Assembly: GCA_025350365.1 (NCBI GenBank)
Contig: JANXXY010000224.1
Coordinates: 1-43,764, forward strand
DNA length: 43,764 bases
Direction of reading: 5' to 3'
DNA from: Bacteroidales bacterium
GTDB lineage: Bacteria; Bacteroidota; Bacteroidia; Bacteroidales; JAAUTT01
A program made the position numbers and the translations under genes. The notes under the pieces were generated by a model, which had not been told where the DNA came from, made no database searches, and was given only the letters and a program-made list of their open reading frames with translations. Position 1 is the stretch's first letter; each line of letters starts with the position of its first letter. Shown piece after piece: positions 25,927 to 39,908 of this stretch.

Positions 25927-27012
25927 ATGGCTGAAAAAGAACCAAATCCCTTTAAAAAAATTTCCGGAATACGGGTTATTTATCCGATAATCATTGGACT
26001 TGGCGTTGTTTTTTATTTCTTTTTTAAGGAATTTAATCATGAGGCTTTTTCGGTTATAACCTTTAGCTTTCGGATGGCTATATTTCTTTTTATTGCCGTT
26101 TTATTTATGGTATTGCGGGATGTGGGCTATATTATTCGGATACGTATTTTAAGTCATAATGAACTTTCGTGGAGACAAGCCTTACGAGTGATCATGCTGT
26201 GGGAATTTTCGTCGGCTGTAATGCCGTCTGCTGTAGGTGGAACCACTATTGCGATGATTTATATCAACAAGGAAGGCATCAATTTGGGTCGTAGCACGGC
26301 AGTGGTAATGGCCACATCGTTTCTCGACGAAGTGTATTTTATTCTAATGTTTCCGGTATTATTGCTTACAATTAAGGTGCATAAACTTTTTACGGTGGGA
26401 ATGGGTGTTTCCGGCACCGATTATATTTCGCTTGCCAACGAATTTTTATGGTTTGCAATTATTGGCTATTCCTTAAAACTCGTCTACACAATTGTTTTGA
26501 GCTATGGTCTTTTTGTAAACCCTCGTGGACTTAAGTGGTTGTTAATGATAGTATTTAAACTCCCATTCTTACGTAAGTTCAGGTATGCCGCACACATCAC
26601 CGGAACCGATATCATTACAAGTTCGAATGAACTTAAAAAACAAAAAATCGGTTTCTGGTTAAAGGCCTTTGGAGCTACTTTTTTTTCATGGACATCAAGG
26701 TATATGGTAGTTAACGCATTAATTCTTGCGTTTTTTGCGGTCTCTGATCATTTTTTACTTTTTGCAAGACAGTTGGTCATGTCGAATATGGTTTTGCTTA
26801 GCCCAACACCCGGCGGAAGTGGTTTTTCGGAATATATTTTTACACGATATCTCAGCGATTTTTTTCCTGTTGATGCCGCAATTGTCGGAAGTATTGGGAT
26901 TGTGCTGGCGTTGCTGTGGAGAATAATCAGTTATTACCCTTACTTATTAATTGGAGCAATAATTTTACCTAACTGGATTAAAAAAAGGTTCACAAACGAA
27001 AATAAATCTTAA
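25927..27012 (+). CDS. YbhN/LPG-synthase-TM-like flippase-domain membrane protein
   Basis: Polytopic; FSSAVMPSAVGGTTIAMIYINKEGINLGRSTAVVMATSFLDEVYF and LLSPTPGGSGFSE motifs of the UPF0104/LPG_synthase_TM family. Confidence 0.8.
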   Translation: MAEKEPNPFKKISGIRVIYPIIIGLGVVFYFFFKEFNHEAFSVITFSFRMAIFLFIAVLFMVLRDVGYIIRIRILSHNELSWRQALRVIMLWEFSSAVMPSAVGGTTIAMIYINKEGINLGRSTAVVMATSFLDEVYFILMFPVLLLTIKVHKLFTVGMGVSGTDYISLANEFLWFAIIGYSLKLVYTIVLSYGLFVNPRGLKWLLMIVFKLPFLRKFRYAAHITGTDIITSSNELKKQKIGFWLKAFGATFFSWTSRYMVVNALILAFFAVSDHFLLFARQLVMSNMVLLSPTPGGSGFSEYIFTRYLSDFFPVDAAIVGSIGIVLALLWRIISYYPYLLIGAIILPNWIKKRFTNENKS

Positions 27013-27235: not shown

Positions 27236-28117
27236 ATGACGATAACCAGCCTTGATTTGCAACAGTTTATAACTGCTCTAAGAAATTTTTCAACTTATGA
27301 CTTCAGCGAATACTCTGACAAGTCTTTAAAGCGAAGACTAACTAAGGTATTGATTGACTACAAACTTGAATTGGGTGAGTTGATTTCTCAAATGCGAAAC
27401 AATACTCAATTGCTTGAACAAGTAGTTAAAGACATCACTGTAAATACTACCGAACTATTTCGCGACCCTCTGGTATGGCAGCATTTGCGTTATACAATAC
27501 TTCCGAAACTTAAAAATCAACAAACCATTAATATCTGGCATGCAGGATGTTCTACCGGGCAGGAAGTGTATTCCATGATGATGATTTTGAATGAACTTGA
27601 TCTTTTAGAACGCACAAGGATATATGCCAGTGATTTAAATACCGATGTTCTTCAAGCTGCAAAAAAAGGACTATATAAATACCGGTTTAATATCGCATAC
27701 CTAGATAATTTCGACAAAGCGATAAAAGAAAATCCTTTTAATTACGAGCAGTTTTTTGATATTCCTTATTCAAAGTATTTTGAAATAGACAAGGAGAAAG
27801 ATTTTATAAAAATGAATCACTTTCTCACTGAAAAACCAATTTTTAAAAAACTTGATTTAGTTAAGGATAGTAATATTTTTTATGTGAAATTCGATATTAT
27901 CATTTGTAGGAATGTAATTATCTATTTTAATTACGATCTGCAAAATAAAATATTTGAATTGTTTCATAACAATCTGTACAGTAATGGTTATTTATGGCTT
28001 GGCATGCATGAATCCATTCTGGGCCCTTTTGCATCAAAATTTGAAAAAATCGGGCATGTTTATCAAAAAAAGGAAAGTCTGTTTTCGAGTATCGATTATG
28101 GGAAATTGAATAAATAA
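27236..28117 (+). CDS. CheR-type SAM-dependent methyltransferase (intact motifs)
   Basis: TELFRDPLVWQHLR, INIWHAGCSTGQEVYSMMMILNEL, YASDLNTDVLQAAKKGLY, FDIIICRNVIIYFNYDLQNKIFELF motifs. Confidence 0.92.
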   Translation: MTITSLDLQQFITALRNFSTYDFSEYSDKSLKRRLTKVLIDYKLELGELISQMRNNTQLLEQVVKDITVNTTELFRDPLVWQHLRYTILPKLKNQQTINIWHAGCSTGQEVYSMMMILNELDLLERTRIYASDLNTDVLQAAKKGLYKYRFNIAYLDNFDKAIKENPFNYEQFFDIPYSKYFEIDKEKDFIKMNHFLTEKPIFKKLDLVKDSNIFYVKFDIIICRNVIIYFNYDLQNKIFELFHNNLYSNGYLWLGMHESILGPFASKFEKIGHVYQKKESLFSSIDYGKLNK

Positions 28118-28221: not shown

Positions 28222-30909
28222 ATGATAAGAATTAATCAAAGTATAAAATCAAGACTTCTTCTCTTTACAGGAACTATTGTTTTCCTTTTTGGACTGTTCT
28301 TTATTTTTTTATACAATGATTTTTTCTTCGCTCGCAGAACTATTGAATTCTATAACCGGATAAATATTCTAAATTCTGCACCCGGTCAATTGACTTTGCT
28401 TCATAACTCATTTGTTACGAACGAAATTATAAATGAACGGTATTATTTAACGGGGAAAAGCAAATTACTTGATAGTATATTTAGTACTTCAGAACTATAT
28501 CAAAAGCAACTTGATAGTTTAAATTACCTTCCATATTTTTCACCTCAAGTCGTTACCAGAACTCAAATCAAAGGACTCATTACTCAATGCAAAAAACTTA
28601 GTGATATTTATATTATTCTTAACCAACAAATTATTGGGCGTGGGTATTTGAAAACCGGTGAGGCCGGGGAAGTTGATAGGTTTATAAACTTTTTTATAGA
28701 ATTTGCTGTTGCTGAGAACAATCCAATTCTTATGAAATCTATTGTTGAAATCAATAGAATTCAATCCGCTTATCAATTGGGAAAAACTAACGATCACATT
28801 CAACTTCTTTTCGATAGGGTAGATGCTCTCAAAGTTCTTCTTTCCATAAATGATGTCAAACTTTGCAATGGAATGACAGAGATAAACCGCATGAGGCTTA
28901 TCAAGGAGTTAGAATCATTTGCGGCTCTTATTGGAGAATTACAAAAAACTGACATTAAAATTGGATTTTCTGGTGGTCAGGGAACGATAGGTGATGCCCA
29001 ACTCAAACTCGAAATAATAGGCGATAAATCGCAAAACATTTATAAGGAAATAAAAAATGAGGTCGGTCAGCAAATATTCATTCAGTTTATAATTAAAACA
29101 TCATTGTTAATTATTCTGTTATTATTTTATTTGTGGTTTCTACTTCGATTTTCAAGGACTGTAACATTTGCAATACAACAAATTAAAAATTTTGCTTCGG
29201 AACTGGTTCTGGGAAAATTGCCGAATCCTTTGGAACTTAGTGCATGTGATGAATTAATCTCCATATCAGAACTATCAAATAATTTTGCGAGTAGTTTACG
29301 CGAAAAGATTCATTTTGCGACTAATCTTGGCTCGGGGAAAACGAATGTGACCATGTTACCTCTTAGTGAGGAAGATACAATGGCTAATGCATTGTTAAAC
29401 ATGGAGAAAAGTCTTAAAAAAGCCGTTGAGGAAGATCAGAAATATAAAATTGAAGAGCAAAAACGTGCCTGGACCAATGAAGGACTTGCAAAATTCGGTG
29501 AAATCCTCAGAATGCAAACAGACAATTTGGCGACTTTGTCAGATTCCGTCATTGCTAATCTTGTTAAATACCTTAATGCCAATCAGGGAGGTATTTTTCT
29601 TTACAACAACGATGATAAATCAGACATACATCTGCAACTTATATCGGCATTTGCTTTTGATCGCAAAAAATACCTTACAAAACGAATTGAACTTGGCGAA
29701 GGGTTGATAGGCACTTGTGCCCTCGAAAGGCAAACCATTATAATTACTGATGTCCCAGAAGGATATATGGAAATCACCTCGGGTTTGGGAGAAGCTCCTC
29801 CCCGAAGTATTTTAATTGTTCCATTGCGATCCGAAGAAGTGATTTTTGGTGTTCTGGAAATTGCATCACTTAACTTTTTTCAGCCTCATGAAATAGATTT
29901 TGTTGAAAAAATTGCTCAAAGTACCGCTTCAACTTTTGATACTGTAAAAATTAATATCAACACGTCACGATTATTGGAACAGTCCAAAAAACAAGCTGAA
30001 GAAATGGCGCAACAGGAAGAAGAAATGCGTCAAAACCTTGAAGAATTGCAAGCTACACAGGAAGAATCGGAACGCCGTGAAGCAGAAATCAACAGTTTGT
30101 TAGTGGCCGTGGATGCTTCAGCTTTGGTTATCCAAACTGATATGGAAGGCCGGATAATGGAGGTTAATAAAAAGTTCTCTTTTATCGTAAAAAAACATCG
30201 CGACGAGCTAATTGGAACGTATTTGAGAAATATCTTCACTTTCAATGTCGAGATTGACGAATATTACAATTTATTGCTCGATTTGAAACAGGGTAAATTA
30301 ATCAATCGTAACGAAATATTGGATTTTGAGGATGGAAGTAAAGTTTACCTGGTTTTAAATTATTCTCCAATTCTTGATCGAGACGGGAAACCATATAAAG
30401 TTTTAGGAATTGCTACCAACATTACCGATAAAATAGTACTCGAAAATTCAATCTCCAAAAAAGATATCGAGTTAGGTGAAATGGAATTTCATCTCACTCA
30501 TTTTGATCAACTTATTGATTCAGGATTTATTAGAAGCGAATTATCCGCCGAGTGTATTCTGATGAAGGCAAATGATAACTTTACAGAGGTAACCGGTTAT
30601 ACATCAAAAGAATCCATTGGTAAAGATTATCGAAAGTTTTTAAAACCCGATGAATTAAAGCAATTTGAATTGATTTGGAACGAAGTTCTGAAAGATAAAC
30701 CATACAAAGCAGTTGTTAAAAGGACAATGCCGGCAGGCGATGAGCACTGGTTAATGGCCAGTTTCATACCTTTTAAAAACAAATCAGGAAAAATTACTAA
30801 AGTTATTCTGGTTGCGCAAGATATTACGGAAAAGAAATTAAAATACCAGGTTTTAGAAGAGGCTAATAAAGAGATTGAGCGACTCAAAGGAATGCAAAAT
30901 CAAAGCTGA
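28222..30909 (+). CDS. Membrane-anchored GAF-PAS-PAS sensor, no kinase domain
   Basis: TM pair flanking a helical periplasmic region; GAF (LGEGLIGTCALERQTIIITDVPEGYMEITSGLGE); coiled coil QQEEEMRQNLEELQATQEE; two PAS/PAC (NITDKIVLE, DITEKKLKYQ). Ends without HisKA or HATPase. Confidence 0.82.
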   Translation: MIRINQSIKSRLLLFTGTIVFLFGLFFIFLYNDFFFARRTIEFYNRINILNSAPGQLTLLHNSFVTNEIINERYYLTGKSKLLDSIFSTSELYQKQLDSLNYLPYFSPQVVTRTQIKGLITQCKKLSDIYIILNQQIIGRGYLKTGEAGEVDRFINFFIEFAVAENNPILMKSIVEINRIQSAYQLGKTNDHIQLLFDRVDALKVLLSINDVKLCNGMTEINRMRLIKELESFAALIGELQKTDIKIGFSGGQGTIGDAQLKLEIIGDKSQNIYKEIKNEVGQQIFIQFIIKTSLLIILLLFYLWFLLRFSRTVTFAIQQIKNFASELVLGKLPNPLELSACDELISISELSNNFASSLREKIHFATNLGSGKTNVTMLPLSEEDTMANALLNMEKSLKKAVEEDQKYKIEEQKRAWTNEGLAKFGEILRMQTDNLATLSDSVIANLVKYLNANQGGIFLYNNDDKSDIHLQLISAFAFDRKKYLTKRIELGEGLIGTCALERQTIIITDVPEGYMEITSGLGEAPPRSILIVPLRSEEVIFGVLEIASLNFFQPHEIDFVEKIAQSTASTFDTVKININTSRLLEQSKKQAEEMAQQEEEMRQNLEELQATQEESERREAEINSLLVAVDASALVIQTDMEGRIMEVNKKFSFIVKKHRDELIGTYLRNIFTFNVEIDEYYNLLLDLKQGKLINRNEILDFEDGSKVYLVLNYSPILDRDGKPYKVLGIATNITDKIVLENSISKKDIELGEMEFHLTHFDQLIDSGFIRSELSAECILMKANDNFTEVTGYTSKESIGKDYRKFLKPDELKQFELIWNEVLKDKPYKAVVKRTMPAGDEHWLMASFIPFKNKSGKITKVILVAQDITEKKLKYQVLEEANKEIERLKGMQNQS

Positions 30910-30920
30910 ACAAAATTGAT

Positions 30921-31745
30921 ATGCTGGAATTAGGAATAGTTGAGACAAGGAATATTATTAAAACTATATTAGAAAAGTACAATTACGACTTTTCTGATTA
31001 TTCTTTGACGTCATTCAAACGCCGGCTTGAGAAGATAGTAGATCAGCAAAACCTGAAAAATGTCGATCAGCTGATAATAAAATTGCGAGACAATAATAGT
31101 TATTTTGAACAATTTCTTAATGAATTGGCAACACCATCAACAGAAATGTTTCGTGATCCTTCATTGTGGCGTATTTTAAGGGATGAACTATTGCCTTCAT
31201 TAATAAGCGATTTGGGGTCAAATCTAAAAATATGGCTTCCAAATTCAGTTTCTGGCGACGAACTTTTTTCACTGGTAATTACACTACATGAATTGAATCA
31301 GCTTAATAAAGTTCAAATATATGTTTCCTCTTTAAGTACCGTGTCTCTTGATACTATTAGATCAGGCTTGTTGCTTGCCAGTAAACTTGATTTAAGTGCT
31401 GATAATTATATTCGTGCCAATGGAACTGAGGTTTTCCCGAATTATTATAAAATGGAAAACAATGCCATATATAGAGATACTTCATTAATAAAGAACGTTA
31501 TTTTTTCACGGCAAAACTTGAGTTTGGACCCTCCGGTTCAAGGGATTAAACTTGTTTTGTTCCGAAATAAAATGGTATACTACAATCAAACTCTTCAAAG
31601 TAAGGTTTTAAGACAATTGTTTAGTTCTTTGGTACCAAATGGATACTTAATTGTAGGTGCCAAGGAATCGATAAATACCCTCTATGGGAACAACGAATTT
31701 TCATTAATCAATAATTCTGAAAGTATCTATAAGCGCAAACCATGA
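30921..31745 (+). CDS. Degenerate CheR-like protein (SAM motif lost)
   Basis: CheR N-domain TEMFRDPSLWRILRDELLPSL retained; LKIWLPNSVSGDELFSLVITLHEL replaces IWHAGCSTGQE; LVLFRNKMVYYNQTLQSKVLRQLF replaces IICRNVIIYF. Confidence 0.8.
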   Translation: MLELGIVETRNIIKTILEKYNYDFSDYSLTSFKRRLEKIVDQQNLKNVDQLIIKLRDNNSYFEQFLNELATPSTEMFRDPSLWRILRDELLPSLISDLGSNLKIWLPNSVSGDELFSLVITLHELNQLNKVQIYVSSLSTVSLDTIRSGLLLASKLDLSADNYIRANGTEVFPNYYKMENNAIYRDTSLIKNVIFSRQNLSLDPPVQGIKLVLFRNKMVYYNQTLQSKVLRQLFSSLVPNGYLIVGAKESINTLYGNNEFSLINNSESIYKRKP

Positions 31746-32299
31746 TTTATAAAGCAATTATGATAGGCGGATCGGCCGGAAGTTTTCAGGTAGTAACGAA
31801 AATATTAAGTGCTTTGCCAAAGACACTGAATATGCCTCTGTTTTTATGTCTTCATCGGCTAAAGCATGTTCGGTCCGGTTTTCTTGAAGCTTTGTCACTG
31901 AAATCAAATCTTCCGGTTATAGAACCTGACGACAAAGAACAAATTAAACCTGGAAGGGCTTACCTTGCACCTGCAAACTATCATATGTATATTGAACTTG
32001 GAAATAGAATTGCATTGTCTACGGAGGAGCCTGTAAACCATTCGCGGCCATCCATCGATCTTTCGTTTGTTACTGCAGCGCATGCTTACCGCGAAAAACT
32101 CATTGGGATTATTCTGTCTGGCGCTAATAGCGACGGAGCTTACGGGCTAAAAAAAGTGAAAGACTTAAATGGCTTTACAATTGTTCAGGATCCTAATGAA
32201 TGCCAGGTTCGAACGATGACTGAAGCGGCCATGAAAAGCACAAACGTAGATCAGGTTTTATCGACTGACCAGATTATTAAATTTTTACTAAAATTATAA
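31742..32299 (+). CDS. CheB-type methylesterase/deamidase catalytic domain without receiver
   Basis: IGGSAGSFQVVTKIL, FLCLHRLKHVRSGFLEAL, PGRAYLAPANYHMYIE, IGIILSGANSDGAYGLKKVK; Ser, His and Asp positions present; only 185 aa. Confidence 0.9.
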   Translation: MIYKAIMIGGSAGSFQVVTKILSALPKTLNMPLFLCLHRLKHVRSGFLEALSLKSNLPVIEPDDKEQIKPGRAYLAPANYHMYIELGNRIALSTEEPVNHSRPSIDLSFVTAAHAYREKLIGIILSGANSDGAYGLKKVKDLNGFTIVQDPNECQVRTMTEAAMKSTNVDQVLSTDQIIKFLLKL

Positions 32300-32312: not shown

Positions 32313-33077
32313 ATGAAAATGAACCTTTCTTATAAATATCTTAACCTGATTATTTTTCTGCTTATAGTGGCGGTAGTATTCGCTCTTTTTGGTGTGATTA
32401 ATAATATATCCAATGATAATTCAGATAAAATTACATTTGCGTACATTCTGCTTTTTGCAATTCTTTTTCTCATTGTTGTCTGGTTTTTAGTTACATTAAA
32501 AATAGGAAGAATATCCAATGACATTTCGTTGTCCGATAACGCTGATCATGAAATTTTAAATAACACGAGTAATTTCATGTCTAACGACAAAGAGGAAATT
32601 CGTGCAAATAAAAATGAAATTGATGTTTCCCGGATAATTCCAGATAATTGCAAGTCGGTCGAAGAGTTTTCAGAGCATATCCTTCAGAATTTAGCTCAGG
32701 AATTTAATATCGTTCAAGCTTTAATGTATTTGAAAACAGCCGATACCGACAATTACGAATCAATTGCTCAGTATGCTTATTTTTCTGAATCAAAGCCACA
32801 AGCCTTTAAGGCCGGCGAAACATTGCCCGGTCAGGCAATTAAAAACAGAACTATTGTTATGTTAACCGATGTACCTGAAAACTATTTGACCATTGCTTCA
32901 GGATTAGGAAAAAGTGGCATCAAATATTTGGTATTTGTGCCGCTGATTCACAATGATGATGTTGTTGGATTGATCGAATATGCAACTTTTACCCAGATAA
33001 ATGAAGATATAATCAAAATGCTGGGCAATATTGCAGATTTGGTTGCTGAAACTATTGTTAAACTCATAAAAAAGTAA
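32313..33077 (+). CDS. Membrane-anchored GAF-domain protein
   Basis: Two TM helices, then GAF-like AFKAGETLPGQAIKNRTIVMLTDVPENYLTIASGLGKSGIKYLVFVPL, similar to GAFs of neighbours. Confidence 0.75.
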   Translation: MKMNLSYKYLNLIIFLLIVAVVFALFGVINNISNDNSDKITFAYILLFAILFLIVVWFLVTLKIGRISNDISLSDNADHEILNNTSNFMSNDKEEIRANKNEIDVSRIIPDNCKSVEEFSEHILQNLAQEFNIVQALMYLKTADTDNYESIAQYAYFSESKPQAFKAGETLPGQAIKNRTIVMLTDVPENYLTIASGLGKSGIKYLVFVPLIHNDDVVGLIEYATFTQINEDIIKMLGNIADLVAETIVKLIKK

Positions 33078-33086
33078 AACAAACAT

Positions 33087-35702
33087 ATGCCGGTAAAGGT
33101 GAACTATATCCTTGATAACGCAAAAGCTCGGGCTGTAATAATCGGAGTGGCAGTGAGCATTGTTGTTCCTGTTATTGCATGGATGATGGATATCATTGTG
33201 GCCGGCCGGATGCTGAGCTTAACAACTCTATTGCAAATACATATCAATCATCCGAGTCTGTTTTTTGTTGATTTAATACCAATTGCTTCCGGAATAATTA
33301 TCTATTTTATAATAAGTATTCGGGAAAAGGATAAGGACTTCTACGAGGGAAAAATCATTAAAAGAGATCACCGCATTAATAAAAACGCCTCATTCGCAAA
33401 ACAAATAGGTGAAGGAGATTATACCAGCCCGTTTGAACCATCGGGTAGTGACGATGCATTAGGCGAATCGTTGCTTTTAATGCGCGATAACCTGATTTTA
33501 AATACCCGCAAAGAAGCTGAACAGAGCTGGATTGCTGCAGGAAAGGAACAAATTTCGAATGTGCTTCGAATTCATAACAAAATTGACGTTCTGGCAAATG
33601 AGACATTGGTTTCACTTACAAAATATATCAATGCCGTTCAGGGCGCATTCTATTTGTTTGAATCGGATAGACAGGTGCTTATAAATATTGCCACTTATGC
33701 TTTTAACCGTAAAAAATTTGTAAATCAGGAGTTTCAGGTAGGTGAGGGGCTGATAGGTGAGTGTGCCTATGAAATGGATCTTATTTATCGTACCGAAATA
33801 CCTGAAGATTATGTTACTATCACCTCGGGTATTTTAGGTGACAAGCGGCCAAAAACAATTCTAATTGTGCCCTTGGTATCAGACGAAAACCTGCAAGGTG
33901 TTATAGAATTTGCGTTTTTACTCGATGAGCTTCCTGCTCTAACGCTTCATTTTATGAAGGAGTTAGGAGAAATTATTGCTCGCACAATTTTTAACCTTCG
34001 TGTAAACGAAAAAACCGAACGTTTGCTTGAGGAGTCGCGCCAAATGACGGGTGAACTTATGGAGAACGAAGAACAACTGCGGCAAAGTGCGGAAGAAATG
34101 CGTGCTACTCAGGAAGAACTACAACGCTCCAACGAAAAACTCGAAGGCCAAATTAACGAAGTCGAAAATGCCCAAAAACGTCTTCATTCGCTTCTCCAAA
34201 ATGCATCCGAAATTATTTTTATTTACGATGAAAGTTTAAATCTGGCATATATTAGTCCTTCAGTTTCCGGCATTTTGGGATTTACACCCGATGAGATGAT
34301 GAAAGGTAAGGATTTTGACCGTCTTACCCGCAAGGGTGAAGTTGAACTCCGGTCCATGTTTAGCCGCTTGCTTGAAAGGCCGGCCGAACCTATTACAATC
34401 CAGTACACTTACATGAAAAAGGATGGACAAAAAATTTTCCTCGAAACTACGGGAAGAAACCTTTTGGCCGACCCTGCACTTCATGGAATCATCCTAAATT
34501 CGCAGGATATAACCGAACGAAAACGAGCAGAAAAAGAAGAGCGGATGAAAAGCAAAATGCAATCCCTCTCTGAGAACTCTCTCGATTTGATTATACGATT
34601 AAATATGCATGGTATGTTTTTCTATGCCAATCCGGTAGTTGAAGATTATATTGGCATAAAAAGTTCTGAAATTTTGAATAAAACTATTCAGGATACTGAG
34701 ATGCCGCCAAATTTGCTTTCCTATTTTCAAACAACCCTCATAGAAGTTAAAGCCTCCCCGCAAAAACGGAATAATCAGATTTCCATTTCAATTCAACTTG
34801 GCGAAAAGATGGCAGAAAGAATCATTAGTCTTGATGCCATACCGGAATTTAATGAAAATGAGCTGGAAACTATATTATTTGTTGGTCATGATATAACTGA
34901 GGCTAAACGTATTGAATTAGAAATTGCCGATAAAAATAGGAAGATCGAGGATAGCATCAACTATGCTCAGCGCATCCAGTCCGCCATTCTTCCCGATAAT
35001 GCATTTATTCGCGATTACCTGCCAAAATCGTTTATTTTTTACAAACCACGCGATGTTGTCAGCGGAGATTTTCCATGGTTCTTTAAACGCGATGATACTT
35101 TATATATTGCAGTAGTGGATTGCACAGGTCACGGTGTGCCCGGCGCGTTGCTTTCATTTGTTGGTTATTTTATTCTTAATAATGTAGTTGACCATGAACG
35201 GGATTATACCGCTGCCGAAGTTTGCGATCTGTTACATAATGGAGTACGTCAAACACTTAAGCAAAATCGCGAAGATGCTCAAGGTCGTGACGGCATGGAT
35301 ATCGCCCTGGTGAAATATAACCCGAAGAAAAACGAAATACATTATGCCGGCGCTCATCGCCCTCTATATTTCTTACGTAATGGTGAATTGACCGAATATA
35401 AGGGTGACAGAAAAGCTATCGGTGGTATCCCTTTGGGGAGTAAACCTGAAAAGAACTTCACTAATTATGTTATTCCCGTGGAAACTGGTGATAAAGTGTT
35501 TTTCTTCTCCGATGGTTTAACTGATCAACTGGGAGGTACCGAATTTAAAAAGTTTTCACCGGCACGCGTGCGGGATATGATCTCACAAAATTCAAATAAT
35601 ACAATGGAAGACTATCATCAATTATTTGATAAAGATTTTTTTGCATGGAAGGGTAACGAAAAGCAAATAGATGATGTTTTATTAATCGGAATAGAATTTT
35701 AA
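33087..35702 (+). CDS. SiaA/RsbU-like TM-GAF-PAS-PAS-SpoIIE (PP2C) phosphatase
   Basis: Two TMs, GAF, PAS, and C-terminal YAQRIQSAILPDNAF...FYKPRDVVSGDFPWF...VVDCTGHGVPGALLSFVG...YAGAHRPLYFLRNGEL...FFFSDGLTDQLGG. Confidence 0.9.
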   Translation: MPVKVNYILDNAKARAVIIGVAVSIVVPVIAWMMDIIVAGRMLSLTTLLQIHINHPSLFFVDLIPIASGIIIYFIISIREKDKDFYEGKIIKRDHRINKNASFAKQIGEGDYTSPFEPSGSDDALGESLLLMRDNLILNTRKEAEQSWIAAGKEQISNVLRIHNKIDVLANETLVSLTKYINAVQGAFYLFESDRQVLINIATYAFNRKKFVNQEFQVGEGLIGECAYEMDLIYRTEIPEDYVTITSGILGDKRPKTILIVPLVSDENLQGVIEFAFLLDELPALTLHFMKELGEIIARTIFNLRVNEKTERLLEESRQMTGELMENEEQLRQSAEEMRATQEELQRSNEKLEGQINEVENAQKRLHSLLQNASEIIFIYDESLNLAYISPSVSGILGFTPDEMMKGKDFDRLTRKGEVELRSMFSRLLERPAEPITIQYTYMKKDGQKIFLETTGRNLLADPALHGIILNSQDITERKRAEKEERMKSKMQSLSENSLDLIIRLNMHGMFFYANPVVEDYIGIKSSEILNKTIQDTEMPPNLLSYFQTTLIEVKASPQKRNNQISISIQLGEKMAERIISLDAIPEFNENELETILFVGHDITEAKRIELEIADKNRKIEDSINYAQRIQSAILPDNAFIRDYLPKSFIFYKPRDVVSGDFPWFFKRDDTLYIAVVDCTGHGVPGALLSFVGYFILNNVVDHERDYTAAEVCDLLHNGVRQTLKQNREDAQGRDGMDIALVKYNPKKNEIHYAGAHRPLYFLRNGELTEYKGDRKAIGGIPLGSKPEKNFTNYVIPVETGDKVFFFSDGLTDQLGGTEFKKFSPARVRDMISQNSNNTMEDYHQLFDKDFFAWKGNEKQIDDVLLIGIEF

Positions 35703-35732: not shown

Positions 35733-36317
35733 ATGGGCACAAATGAAAAGAAGGATGTAAGAGGATTCCTCGAATTTGTATATGAGTTTTATAAATCAAT
35801 GAAGGAACATGAGATTACGCTGGTATACGAGGGTGAAATAACACACCAAATAACAAAAGCCTTCACTTCTCTTACCGAATCTAATATGGCAAAAGAAGAA
35901 GAGTCTAATTTAGTTCAAAAAAAGGTTTTTCATGTGATGGTTGAATGTTTACAAAATATCAGCAAACACGCCGATGATTATGGCGCTAACGATTATTTGT
36001 TTTCCGGAAGAGGCATATTTTTAGTTTCGAAAGGGAAAGATGAGTATTCCGTTACTACAGGCAACGCAATTGACCACACCCGTATGCCGGAATTGAAACG
36101 TATGCTTGAACAAGTAAATAGTCTGGATAAAGAAGAACTTACCGAACTTTACAAGAAACAGATTAAGGAAGGCAGATTGTCCGATAAGGGAGGTGCCGGA
36201 TTAGGCTTTATTGATATTAAGCGGAAAACCGGGCGTAATCTTGAGTATCACTTTTTGCCTATAAACGATGTCTCATCGTTCTTTTTATTAACATCAACTA
36301 TTTCACGAAATGCTTAA
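35733..36317 (+). CDS. SiaB-family protein kinase-like (DUF6272)
   Basis: VFHVMVECLQNISKHADDYG and DKGGAGLGFIDIKRKTGRNLEYHFLPI motifs; adjacent to the SiaC-like gene. Confidence 0.82.
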   Translation: MGTNEKKDVRGFLEFVYEFYKSMKEHEITLVYEGEITHQITKAFTSLTESNMAKEEESNLVQKKVFHVMVECLQNISKHADDYGANDYLFSGRGIFLVSKGKDEYSVTTGNAIDHTRMPELKRMLEQVNSLDKEELTELYKKQIKEGRLSDKGGAGLGFIDIKRKTGRNLEYHFLPINDVSSFFLLTSTISRNA

Positions 36318-36341: not shown

Positions 36342-36719
36342 ATGGAAGTTTTCAAAATTTTGGGTACTGACGATACCCCTGGTGTAACGCTGGATGCGGC
36401 TAACGACATATTTGAAATTTCAGGTCGGTCGCTACCGGAGGATGTAAATGCATTTTACAAACCTATTATTGATTGGATGGATAAGTACAACTTGGCTCCA
36501 AAAGCAAAAACCATCTTTTATTTCAGATTGGTTTATTTTAATACTGCTTCGTCAAAGATGTTACTCGATGTTCTTATGAAATTGGAGGAACTCTATAAAT
36601 CAGGGAATGATGTTGTTGTTCGGTGGCAATATCCTGATGATGACGAAGATATGAAAGAGGCTGGCGAGGAATATGCTGACATTGTTGACGTTCCATTCGA
36701 GCAAATTGAAATATCCTGA
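36342..36719 (+). CDS. SiaC-family regulatory phosphoprotein (DUF1987)
   Basis: GTDDTPGVTLDAANDIFEISGRSLPEDVNAFYKPIIDWMDKY and RLVYFNTASSKMLLDVLMKLEEL; Thr is residue 68. Confidence 0.87.
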   Translation: MEVFKILGTDDTPGVTLDAANDIFEISGRSLPEDVNAFYKPIIDWMDKYNLAPKAKTIFYFRLVYFNTASSKMLLDVLMKLEELYKSGNDVVVRWQYPDDDEDMKEAGEEYADIVDVPFEQIEIS

Positions 36720-36833: not shown

Positions 36834-39800
36834 ATGAGTGAAGAGATTTTAAAAGCGTTAATGCAACTGTTTGCGATTATTGCTAAACAGGACGAGGGTG
36901 TGGAACTTAGCGAGCGTGAGTACGTTAAAACCTTTTTGACCCTTCAACTGAGTGATGAAGCCGTAAACGAATATTTGATTCTGTTTGATAGTTTTGCAGG
37001 TCTTGATAAAACTGTTGACGAAAACGGTGTTGAGATTGCAAGGAAAAAACTGACTTCTGTTAAAGATTCGGTTCGTATTCTGGGTATTTGTAAAAAAATC
37101 AACAAAACACTTACTCAGGAACAAAAAGTAGTAGTCTTGGTTCGACTTTTTGAGTTGGTAAATGCGGACCGTAAATTTACCGATCAGCGAATGGCTATCA
37201 TCAATACGGTGGCCGAAGTTTTTAATCTTCCCAGAGAAGAATTTAAAAGCATTGAGACTTTTGTAGTTAAAAACCGACCTGAAGCGCTTGATCAACCTGA
37301 TGTTTTAGTTATTGCCGATAAGCCTGTTGTAAACCTGCAAAGTAAATTTATTCTCACTGAAAAACTTGACGGCAACCTCTATATTCTCAGGATTGCCAGT
37401 GTTGATCTGTATTTTCTGAAATATACAGGGCATGAAGATCTATTTTTGAATGGCCTCGGAATTACCAATAGACGCATCTATTTATACGCCAGCGGAAGTG
37501 CCGTAAAAATGCCTAAAGGAAAGCCGGTTTATTACAGTGATGTTGTAGCGCACTACCTTGCTGATATTACTTCGAACAAAATATCATTCGAAGTGAATAA
37601 CCTCGAATTTCGATTCCCTAATGGAAATATTGGACTGCGAAACGTTAGCTTTTCTGAAGGTCAGGGAAAACTGATTGGTATTATGGGAGCCAGTGGAGCA
37701 GGTAAAACTACGTTGTTGAATGTATTATGCGGAACGGAGTTACCTTACAAAGGAGAAGTGATTATTAACGGTCACAATCTTCATAAAGAGAAAGATAAAG
37801 TGGAGGGAGTTATTGGTCTTATTCCTCAGGACGACCTTTTAATCGAAGAATTAACCGTTTTTGAAAATCTATATTATAACGCAAAACTGTGTTTTAAGAA
37901 CCAAACTGAAGAACAGATTAACGAACGTGTCGTTCGAACACTTTCAAGTCTTGGACTTTTAGAACGTAAGGATCTCAAAGTCGGATCGCCACTGAACAAA
38001 ACCATTAGTGGTGGACAACGGAAACGCTTGAATATCGCGCTTGAATTAATTCGCGAACCGTCTATCTTGTTTGTTGATGAGCCTACCTCCGGACTTTCGT
38101 CGAGAGATTCCGAAAACGTGATGGACTTATTACGGGAACTTGCATTGAAAGGAAAACTTATTTTTGTAGTAATTCACCAGCCGTCGTCGGAAATTTATAA
38201 GATGTTCGACAAAATGATTATCCTGGATACGGGAGGATACCTAATATATTATGGCAACCCAGTTGAAGCTGTGATGTATTTTAAAAGAATTGACGCTCAA
38301 ATTAACAGCAATGTAGGAGAGTGTCCCGTTTGTGGAAATGTGAATCCCGAACTTATTTTTAACATTATTGAAGCCAAGGTTGTTGACGAGTTTGGCAGGT
38401 ATACTGATAAACGCAAAGTACAACCGCCGAAATGGGAGGGATTTTACTCTGAAAATTTTCATCCTGAAAAGATGCAGGTAATCAGCGAGGATCCGCCAAA
38501 ATCATTAAATATCCCAAACTGGATCAACCAGATTAAGATTTATACAGTTCGTGATTTTGTTTCTAAAATAAGCAATACCCAATATATATCGCTTAATCTT
38601 CTGGATGCTCCCCTGCTGGGATTAATTCTTGCATATGTTATCAGGTATATTTCCGACCCGGGTTCGGATGTGTATATTTTTAGAGAAAATGAAAATATTC
38701 CGGTTTATATTTTCATGAGTCTCATTGTGGCTTTGTTTCTGGGCTTAATCGTTAGTGCCGAAGAAATATTTCGCGATCGTAAAATACTCAAACGCGAAGG
38801 TTTTCTTAATTTGAGCCGTTCAAGCTATCTATTATCTAAAATATTTATATTATTAGTAATTAGCGCTATACAAAGTTTAACATTTGTACTTATTGCGAAC
38901 TCAATTCTGGGAATTAACGGAATGTATTTTACGTACTGGTTTGCCCTATTCACTACGGCTGCTTTTGCTAACATGTTAGGGTTAAATGTTTCAGCTTCAT
39001 TTAATTCAGCTGTAACTATATATATTCTTATTCCACTGCTTATGATCCCTATGATGATCCTAAGCGGGGCAATGTTTCGTTTTGATAAACTTAACCGTAA
39101 TGTTGGTAGTGTGGATAAGGTTCCTCTGTTGGCTGAAATAATGGTAACTCGTTGGGCTTATGAGGCCTTGGTGGTTCATCAATTTAAAGACAATCAATTT
39201 GAAAAAGCATTTTACGATATTGAGAAACGTGAAAGCAACGCTGATTTTAAACAGGTGCATCTTATACCCGAACTTCAAAAACGACTGGACGATTGCAACG
39301 CTGAATTCTCAAAGTTTGGAAAAATAGAGAAAACCAATGTTCAGCTTGATGTTCTAAAGAACGAAATATCCAAAGAATTGATGATTAATATGGATCTTCC
39401 ATTTAAAAATGCAGATGGAATAATAGCTGAAAAATATAGTGCCAGGATGGCTAAAGCATTACAATCTTTTATTGATAGAATGAAAGCTGATTATTCAGGG
39501 AAATTTATGCAAGCCAACAAAGAAAAGGAAGATAAAATAAATAGAGAACTTAAAAAGGATCCTGAAAGATATAAGCAGTATAAAAACGTGTACCATAACG
39601 AAAATTTGTCGGATTTGGTGCGGAAAGTGCTTGAAAAAAATAAAATATTAGAATATAATCACGAATTGGTTCAGCAGGTAGATCCAATTTATATGGATCC
39701 TACCATTCGGGGACCTTTAAGTTTGCGATCTCATTTTTTTGCCCCTCGCAAACCATTTTTTGGCGTTTATTATGATACATACTGGTACAATATGATTGTA

Positions 39801-39908
39801 GTATGGTTATTTACTGTCATTCTTTATCTGGCTCTCTATTACGAGTGGTTTTTAAGATTTATGAATATGTTCGGAAAACTTAAACTTAAAAAGGAAAGTT
39901 CAGAATAA
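36834..39908 (+). CDS. TerB-like/ABCG-type ABC transporter fusion (ATPase plus ABC2 membrane domain)
   Basis: Walker A GIMGASGAGKTTLLNVLCG, signature TISGGQRKRLNIALEL, Walker B ILFVDEPTSGLSS, VVIHQPSSEI; N-terminal helical TerB-like domain; C-terminal TMs with ~200-aa loop. Confidence 0.88.
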   Translation: MSEEILKALMQLFAIIAKQDEGVELSEREYVKTFLTLQLSDEAVNEYLILFDSFAGLDKTVDENGVEIARKKLTSVKDSVRILGICKKINKTLTQEQKVVVLVRLFELVNADRKFTDQRMAIINTVAEVFNLPREEFKSIETFVVKNRPEALDQPDVLVIADKPVVNLQSKFILTEKLDGNLYILRIASVDLYFLKYTGHEDLFLNGLGITNRRIYLYASGSAVKMPKGKPVYYSDVVAHYLADITSNKISFEVNNLEFRFPNGNIGLRNVSFSEGQGKLIGIMGASGAGKTTLLNVLCGTELPYKGEVIINGHNLHKEKDKVEGVIGLIPQDDLLIEELTVFENLYYNAKLCFKNQTEEQINERVVRTLSSLGLLERKDLKVGSPLNKTISGGQRKRLNIALELIREPSILFVDEPTSGLSSRDSENVMDLLRELALKGKLIFVVIHQPSSEIYKMFDKMIILDTGGYLIYYGNPVEAVMYFKRIDAQINSNVGECPVCGNVNPELIFNIIEAKVVDEFGRYTDKRKVQPPKWEGFYSENFHPEKMQVISEDPPKSLNIPNWINQIKIYTVRDFVSKISNTQYISLNLLDAPLLGLILAYVIRYISDPGSDVYIFRENENIPVYIFMSLIVALFLGLIVSAEEIFRDRKILKREGFLNLSRSSYLLSKIFILLVISAIQSLTFVLIANSILGINGMYFTYWFALFTTAAFANMLGLNVSASFNSAVTIYILIPLLMIPMMILSGAMFRFDKLNRNVGSVDKVPLLAEIMVTRWAYEALVVHQFKDNQFEKAFYDIEKRESNADFKQVHLIPELQKRLDDCNAEFSKFGKIEKTNVQLDVLKNEISKELMINMDLPFKNADGIIAEKYSARMAKALQSFIDRMKADYSGKFMQANKEKEDKINRELKKDPERYKQYKNVYHNENLSDLVRKVLEKNKILEYNHELVQQVDPIYMDPTIRGPLSLRSHFFAPRKPFFGVYYDTYWYNMIVVWLFTVILYLALYYEWFLRFMNMFGKLKLKKESSE

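Follow-up and report, generated by a model that had tools for sequence, protein, structure and literature searches.

A gene at 30921..31745 on the forward strand of the window (the whole 43,764-nucleotide stretch analysed, contig C156 of a Bacteroidota genome that has 483 contigs and is 85% complete) encodes a relative of the methyltransferase CheR that is best described as a conserved pseudoenzyme. The protein, called pseudo-CheR (PsR) here, has kept the CheR fold, and its pattern of lost residues supports the prediction that it is catalytically inactive. The explanation we favour, tentatively and at slightly under an even chance, is that PsR is a non-methylating, helix-binding partner of CheB in a methylation system that is not based on methyl-accepting chemotaxis proteins (MCPs). 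The genes of the locus from CheR1 to the TerB-ABC fusion, described below, all lie on the forward strand.

The reading frame was confirmed at exactly these bounds and specifies a stand-alone protein of 274 residues with no CheW fusion. PsR scores 73.3 bits against Pfam CheR and 28.3 bits against CheR_N, both above the cut-off of 27, and phmmer matches it to solved CheR structures. The ten best PDB matches of its AlphaFold2 model (pLDDT 93.2, pTM 0.90) are all CheR proteins, including 5ftw, 1bc5, 1af7 and 5y4r, and the TM score of 0.78 to 5ftw places the model within the CheR fold. This bears out the retained fold proposed in an earlier note, which had been made from the DNA sequence.

A comparison with the intact methyltransferase of the same locus, CheR1 (27236..28117; Pfam CheR, 130 bits), using residue numbers from an alignment to Salmonella CheR, locates the losses. 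CheR1 keeps all pocket residues. PsR, about 29–33% identical to it, replaces NTTELFRD with PSTEMFRD, IWHAGCSTGQE with IWLPNSVSGDE, ASD with SSL and CRN with FRN. The equivalent of the SAM-pocket residue N92 is P72 (31134..31136). Motif I is degenerate at residues 105–114 (31233..31262), reading WLPNSVSGDE in place of WHAGCSTGQE: A122 has become P107 and the next three residues are NSV, which turns GCSTG into NSVSG. The D154 equivalent is S137 (31329..31331). Kept are R53 (R35, in the N-domain), T94, R98 (R78, 31152..31154), G127, E129 and, in the segment from R215 to Y220 (31563..31580), R230, N231 and Y235 (Y220). The catalytic pair R98 and Y235 is present as R78 and Y220, and the SAM-pocket residue set is incomplete, the real losses being N92, motif I and D154. 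The N-domain likeness to CheR1 and the motif replacements described earlier are real, and the same changes are found in four congeneric orthologues. Of the motifs then claimed to be lost, motif I is indeed degenerate; the change of CRNVIIYF to FRNKMVYY leaves the motif functionally intact, as R230, N231 and Y235 are kept.

The same pattern runs through the PsR family. Among 68 distinct members, R98 is retained in 68/68, R230 in 67/68, E129 in 65/68, Y235 in 60/68 and R53, which we take to lie on the substrate-binding side of CheR, in 56/68; A122 has become proline in 60/68 and N92 is lost in nearly all. Six later additions, all degenerate, bring the D154 tally to 74, and the aspartate is lost in 72 of these and kept in 89/89 intact relatives tallied. 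The two exceptions read from the motif tables (L078:1495-2328 and L088:1405-2319) are pseudo-CheRs that have the aspartate without N92 and motif I, and may be intermediates.

Mutations made in CheWS of Treponema denticola, a protein with a CheR-like domain, bear on these residues. When E297A and D321A were combined in the SAM pocket of that domain, binding of SAM or SAH was no longer measurable, and D321A by itself was enough to abolish chemotaxis in response to SAM (PMC10653840). By motif position, E297 and D321 would correspond to E129 and D154, an analogy that supports an importance of D154 for SAM binding. Judged by residue identity, PsR would no longer bind SAM, although E129 and G127 are kept. 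Continued methyltransferase activity of PsR through an unusual cofactor mode is very improbable: R98 and Y235, named as catalytic in CheR (PMC3447774), are kept and two clade members retain D154, but the proline at A122, the near-universal loss of N92 and the loss of D154 in 72/74 all weigh against activity. The remodelled pocket might instead accommodate a different small ligand, such as an amino acid or a methyl-ester side chain, which would make PsR an intracellular sensor. R98, E129 and R230 are nearly invariant, and a CheR-fold SAM sensor does exist in a spirochete in the form of CheWS (PMC10653840); however, CheWS keeps equivalents of both E129 and D154, and the loss of D154 in PsR leaves the ligand reading improbable.

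Inactive relatives of CheR are already known, and the pattern of losses in PsR differs from both of them. Like the CheR-derived domain of CheWS, PsR is conserved without methyltransferase function, in its case a predicted lack. CheWS, however, joins the domain to CheW, retains a SAM pocket that binds SAM and lacks the residues for catalysis and receptor binding (PMC10653840); PsR is stand-alone, shows the mirror image of these losses and does not fit a CheWS-type SAM sensor. CheR proteins with an N-terminal TPR are likewise CheR relatives suggested to be inactive, but the four sequences reported do not conserve R98 and Y235 (PMC3447774), whereas PsR keeps both and has no TPR. With CheR itself (PF01739; 1af7, 5ftw, 5xly) PsR shares the fold, the two-domain layout and R53, R98, E129, R230 and Y235, and differs in the loss of N92, D154 and the small residues of motif I and in coexisting with an intact CheR1. 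Searches of the literature, with subscription journals mostly outside their coverage, for catalytically dead CheR paralogues and for Bacteroidetes loci combining CheR, CheB and SpoIIE gave no account of this system.

The degeneration of PsR is old. Its losses recur in four orthologues of the same genus that are 56–77% identical to it, so the motif changes reflect neither chance nor sequencing error. Searching genome contigs and 149 genomes of the host order revealed many more, and the 74 distinct PsR homologues tallied in all form one clade. In a tree of 53 rows with the motif columns excluded, the 24 sampled PsR members group together with support of 99/97 and CheR1 forms a separate clade with support of 100/100. 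The deep nodes of the CheR trees, which bear on an origin of CheR1 and PsR by one duplication, are weakly supported. Against its 77% identical orthologue PsR has a dN/dS of about 0.06, at a dS near saturation, and the value for CheR1 is the same. Recent decay is ruled out by this ratio together with the presence of the same losses in the four congeners and across the order, and an assembly or frameshift artefact is ruled out by a frame that is open in all relatives.

Intact orthologues do exist, and they occur in a different setting. In single-CheR loci of Cytophagales and a few other groups, the CheR at the PsR position is intact (L050, L054, L057, L061, L065, L085/L101), further intact orthologues occur at L136–L138, and CheR1 was not found alongside the intact orthologues at L050, L054, L057, L061, L065, L085 and L136–L138. 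Elsewhere in the phylum, the homologues are intact in 29/29 sampled. CheR1-like genes with at least 43% identity were found only in the host order, and in the order sample an intact CheR1 accompanies PsR in 47/47 PsR genomes. Intact motifs in orthologues, which the earlier note would have read as recent decay, were thus found only in loci or genomes without CheR1; the same losses are kept across many genera in copies that are paired with CheR1. The proposal of a pseudoenzyme is supported by the losses shared within the 74-member clade, by purifying selection and by the intact CheR1 partner.

The PsR gene stands in a locus that joins a methylation module to a phosphatase switch. CheR1 is followed by a membrane sensor with GAF-PAS-PAS domains (28222..30909), a candidate substrate in which Pfam finds no kinase or MCP domain, and then by PsR. 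The stop codon of PsR overlaps the start of cheB as ATGA, as had been pointed out before, which supports a coupling of the two genes. This CheB (31742..32299; Pfam, 167 bits) is a catalytic domain without a receiver domain; its alignment to CheB is confined to residues 168-351. Downstream are a small membrane GAF protein that is a conserved neighbour of cheB (32313..33077), a GAF-PAS-PAS-SpoIIE phosphatase with a SiaA-like C-terminus, also a candidate substrate (33087..35702), a Pfam DUF6272 protein (35733..36317), which we take to be SiaB-like from general knowledge of the SiaABC module, a SiaC family regulatory phosphoprotein assigned by Pfam (36342..36719) and, by Pfam and synteny, a TerB-ABC transporter fusion (36834..39908). 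The full order, from CheR1 to the TerB-ABC gene, is seen again in dozens of genomes. In other families CheR1 directly adjoins PsR and the Sia part is missing in some, down to a locus of just CheR1-PsR-CheB (L169, L170). The SpoIIE phosphatase, SiaB-like and SiaC genes together correspond to a SiaABC module of phosphatase, kinase and phosphoprotein; the Pseudomonas module, however, has no CheR or CheB (PMC7647112), and the PsR locus adjoins a methylation module and has no SiaD.

Several neighbouring features accompany these loci. The TerB-ABC fusion consists of an ATPase and an ABC2 membrane domain and adjoins SiaC in most loci. An LPG-synthase-TM membrane protein (25927-27012) lies directly upstream of CheR1, and such a gene is also found upstream in several relatives (L029, L036, L053 and L058). 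The same genomes carry a second, likewise intact CheR that is accompanied by a CheB of its own (L011–L014, and contig C304 of the window genome); in relatives, this second type often lies 3' of a very large GAF/PAS-like protein (L122–L126, L132, L133).

The distribution of the genes points to CheB as the partner of PsR. Of the sampled genomes of the host order, 52 have CheR1; 47 of these also have PsR together with the adjacent receiver-less CheB, and five lack both; PsR without the locus CheB, or the reverse, occurs in 0/52. This table was compiled by hand for each genome, and its genomes are not independent data points. The five exceptions belong to three genera. L134 and L174 keep CheR1, the sensor, SpoIIE and the Sia genes and lack both PsR and CheB, L176 has CheR1 with SiaB and SiaC only, and L135 and L175 have CheR1 alone. 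CheR1 persists without PsR, whereas PsR and CheB come and go as a pair, which makes CheB the likelier partner. The gap between PsR and cheB is mostly below 10 nt or an overlap, and no PsR-CheB fusion was seen among the reading-frame lengths examined. Across 41 complete loci, the rate of PsR co-varies most strongly with that of CheB (r=0.42, p=0.002) and less with that of CheR1 (r=0.23, p=0.056), in a crude test whose pairs differ only moderately. Co-occurrence and rates are a pointer rather than proof: co-loss need not mean partnership, as one deletion could remove the adjacent PsR and cheB genes, and shared ancestry weakens the association too.

The same observations bear on a role directed at CheR1. 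PsR could be a non-catalytic subunit or activator that dimerises with CheR1 and positions its substrate, by the logic of METTL3-METTL14 or of a prozyme. In the order sample it occurs only in CheR1 genomes, the two genes are often 2–9 nt apart where they abut, and the trypanosome prozyme is a precedent for a dead paralogue that activates its partner (PMC5201418). Such a role is nonetheless unlikely given the persistence of CheR1 without PsR in three genera, the weak rate co-variation with CheR1 and the sensor gene that separates the two in many loci. PsR could also be a simple competitor that occupies acceptor helices, blocks CheR1 and lowers methylation while CheB is untouched, which agrees with the retention of substrate-side R53, R98 and Y235 and the loss of SAM residues. 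This, however, leaves the consistent pairing with cheB unexplained, and a pure brake would be expected to persist where CheB is gone; we regard it as distinctly unlikely. The survival of CheR1 without PsR in three genera, set against the joint presence or absence of PsR and CheB, likewise disfavours the suggestion in the earlier note of a competitor or scaffold for CheR. A dedicated non-enzymatic modulator of receptor methylation has a precedent in the c-di-GMP adaptor MapZ, which binds CheR1 of P. aeruginosa (5xly; PMC6370697), but MapZ has a PilZ fold and, unlike PsR, is not a CheR paralogue.

Candidate methylation sites for this system are found in the two signalling proteins of the locus. 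The sensor contains QEEEMRQNLEELQATQEE (30013..30066) and the SpoIIE phosphatase NEEQLRQSAEEMRATQEE (34065..34118), both in coiled-coil-like linkers and both with the pair spacing of seven residues found in MCP methylation helices. Each matches exactly E-E-x-x-A-S/T, the E. coli CheR consensus (PMC1079850). The linker is the best conserved segment of the phosphatase, at 0.82 against 0.67–0.76 for the folded domains. The motif occurs in 41/57 phosphatases and 29/37 sensors, where about 0.2 is expected from composition shuffles that leave coiled-coil character unpreserved.

The more specific pattern EE[LMI]xATQEE, searched in DNA, follows CheR1 across genomes. It is found in 39 of 149 genomes of the host order: in 38/52 with CheR1, the other 14 lacking the exact pattern, and in 1/97 others, namely G058, which has a single intact locus-type CheR, so that the remainder is 0/96. 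A reversed control pattern gave one match in the 149 genomes. In a search of 393 genomes the pattern occurred only in G200, G297 and G337 and in the window genome. G200, G297 and G337 are the sampled genomes outside the order with a locus-type CheR, and it had been forecast beforehand that outside the order the pattern would be limited to them; most of their matches are at a distance from the CheR locus. Among the dispersed proteins, many are Cache-HAMP-GAF-helix-PAS sensors, chemoreceptor-like but without an MCP domain, and a simple histidine-kinase H-box pattern was present at 0/27 of the motif occurrences examined. Instead of a methylation site, the EExxAT helix could represent a family of coiled coils that has been passed on together with the locus.

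Tandem paralogous receptors of this Cache-HAMP-GAF-helix-PAS type with the acceptor motif occur at L180:1306-13563, L181:2487-9541 and L190:803-8242, in arrays with no recognisable output domain. Acceptor-motif GAF-PAS proteins at L179:3388-5682 and L194:9821-12100 lie about 2 kb or less from a canonical CheB gene (C379 in G000 and C12 in G004), which may connect the two systems.

The MCP signalling domain PF00015 is not among the Pfam matches of 28222-30909 or 33087-35702, and 12/47 PsR genomes have no PF00015 match. Since no MCP signalling domain was detected in these 12, an MCP is an unlikely substrate there, and MCPs as sole substrates are not favoured. Most PsR genomes do have MCPs, which could also be substrates.

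The favoured reading, PsR as a helix-binding partner of CheB, would bring these observations together as follows. The ancestor of PsR would have been a once-active CheR adjoining cheB. Once CheR1 had become established as a second, intact CheR in the ancestor of the order, methylation would have passed to it, and the old CheR gene would then have lost its SAM pocket while its fold, the residues on the substrate side and the coupling with cheB were retained. CheR1 would be the writer and CheB the eraser. PsR, we infer, would still dock on the EExxAT helix of the sensor and of the SiaA-like GAF-PAS-SpoIIE phosphatase without methylating it, and would recruit or gate a CheB that has no receiver domain to regulate it. 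The joint action of PsR and CheB would set the level of methylation and, through it, the SiaB/SiaC switch.

To our knowledge, almost all known cases of reversible glutamate methylation concern MCP chemoreceptors. In the system described here, an MCP-type helix in sensors and a phosphatase lacking an MCP domain goes with a writer, an eraser and a CheR-derived protein predicted to be non-catalytic, in some genomes with no MCP detected. This raises the possibility, which we hold plausible but on balance doubtful, that the host order uses an adaptation by glutamyl methylation that does not rest on MCPs, in which CheR1, the receiver-less CheB and PsR act on dispersed Cache-HAMP-GAF-PAS sensors and SiaA-like phosphatases through a shared EE[LM]RQNxEE[LM]xATQEE helix. 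Such a system is a more novel and less certain claim than PsR itself. The acceptor motif allows its candidate substrates to be listed, and PsR would give the CheR/CheB pair a dedicated non-catalytic third member.
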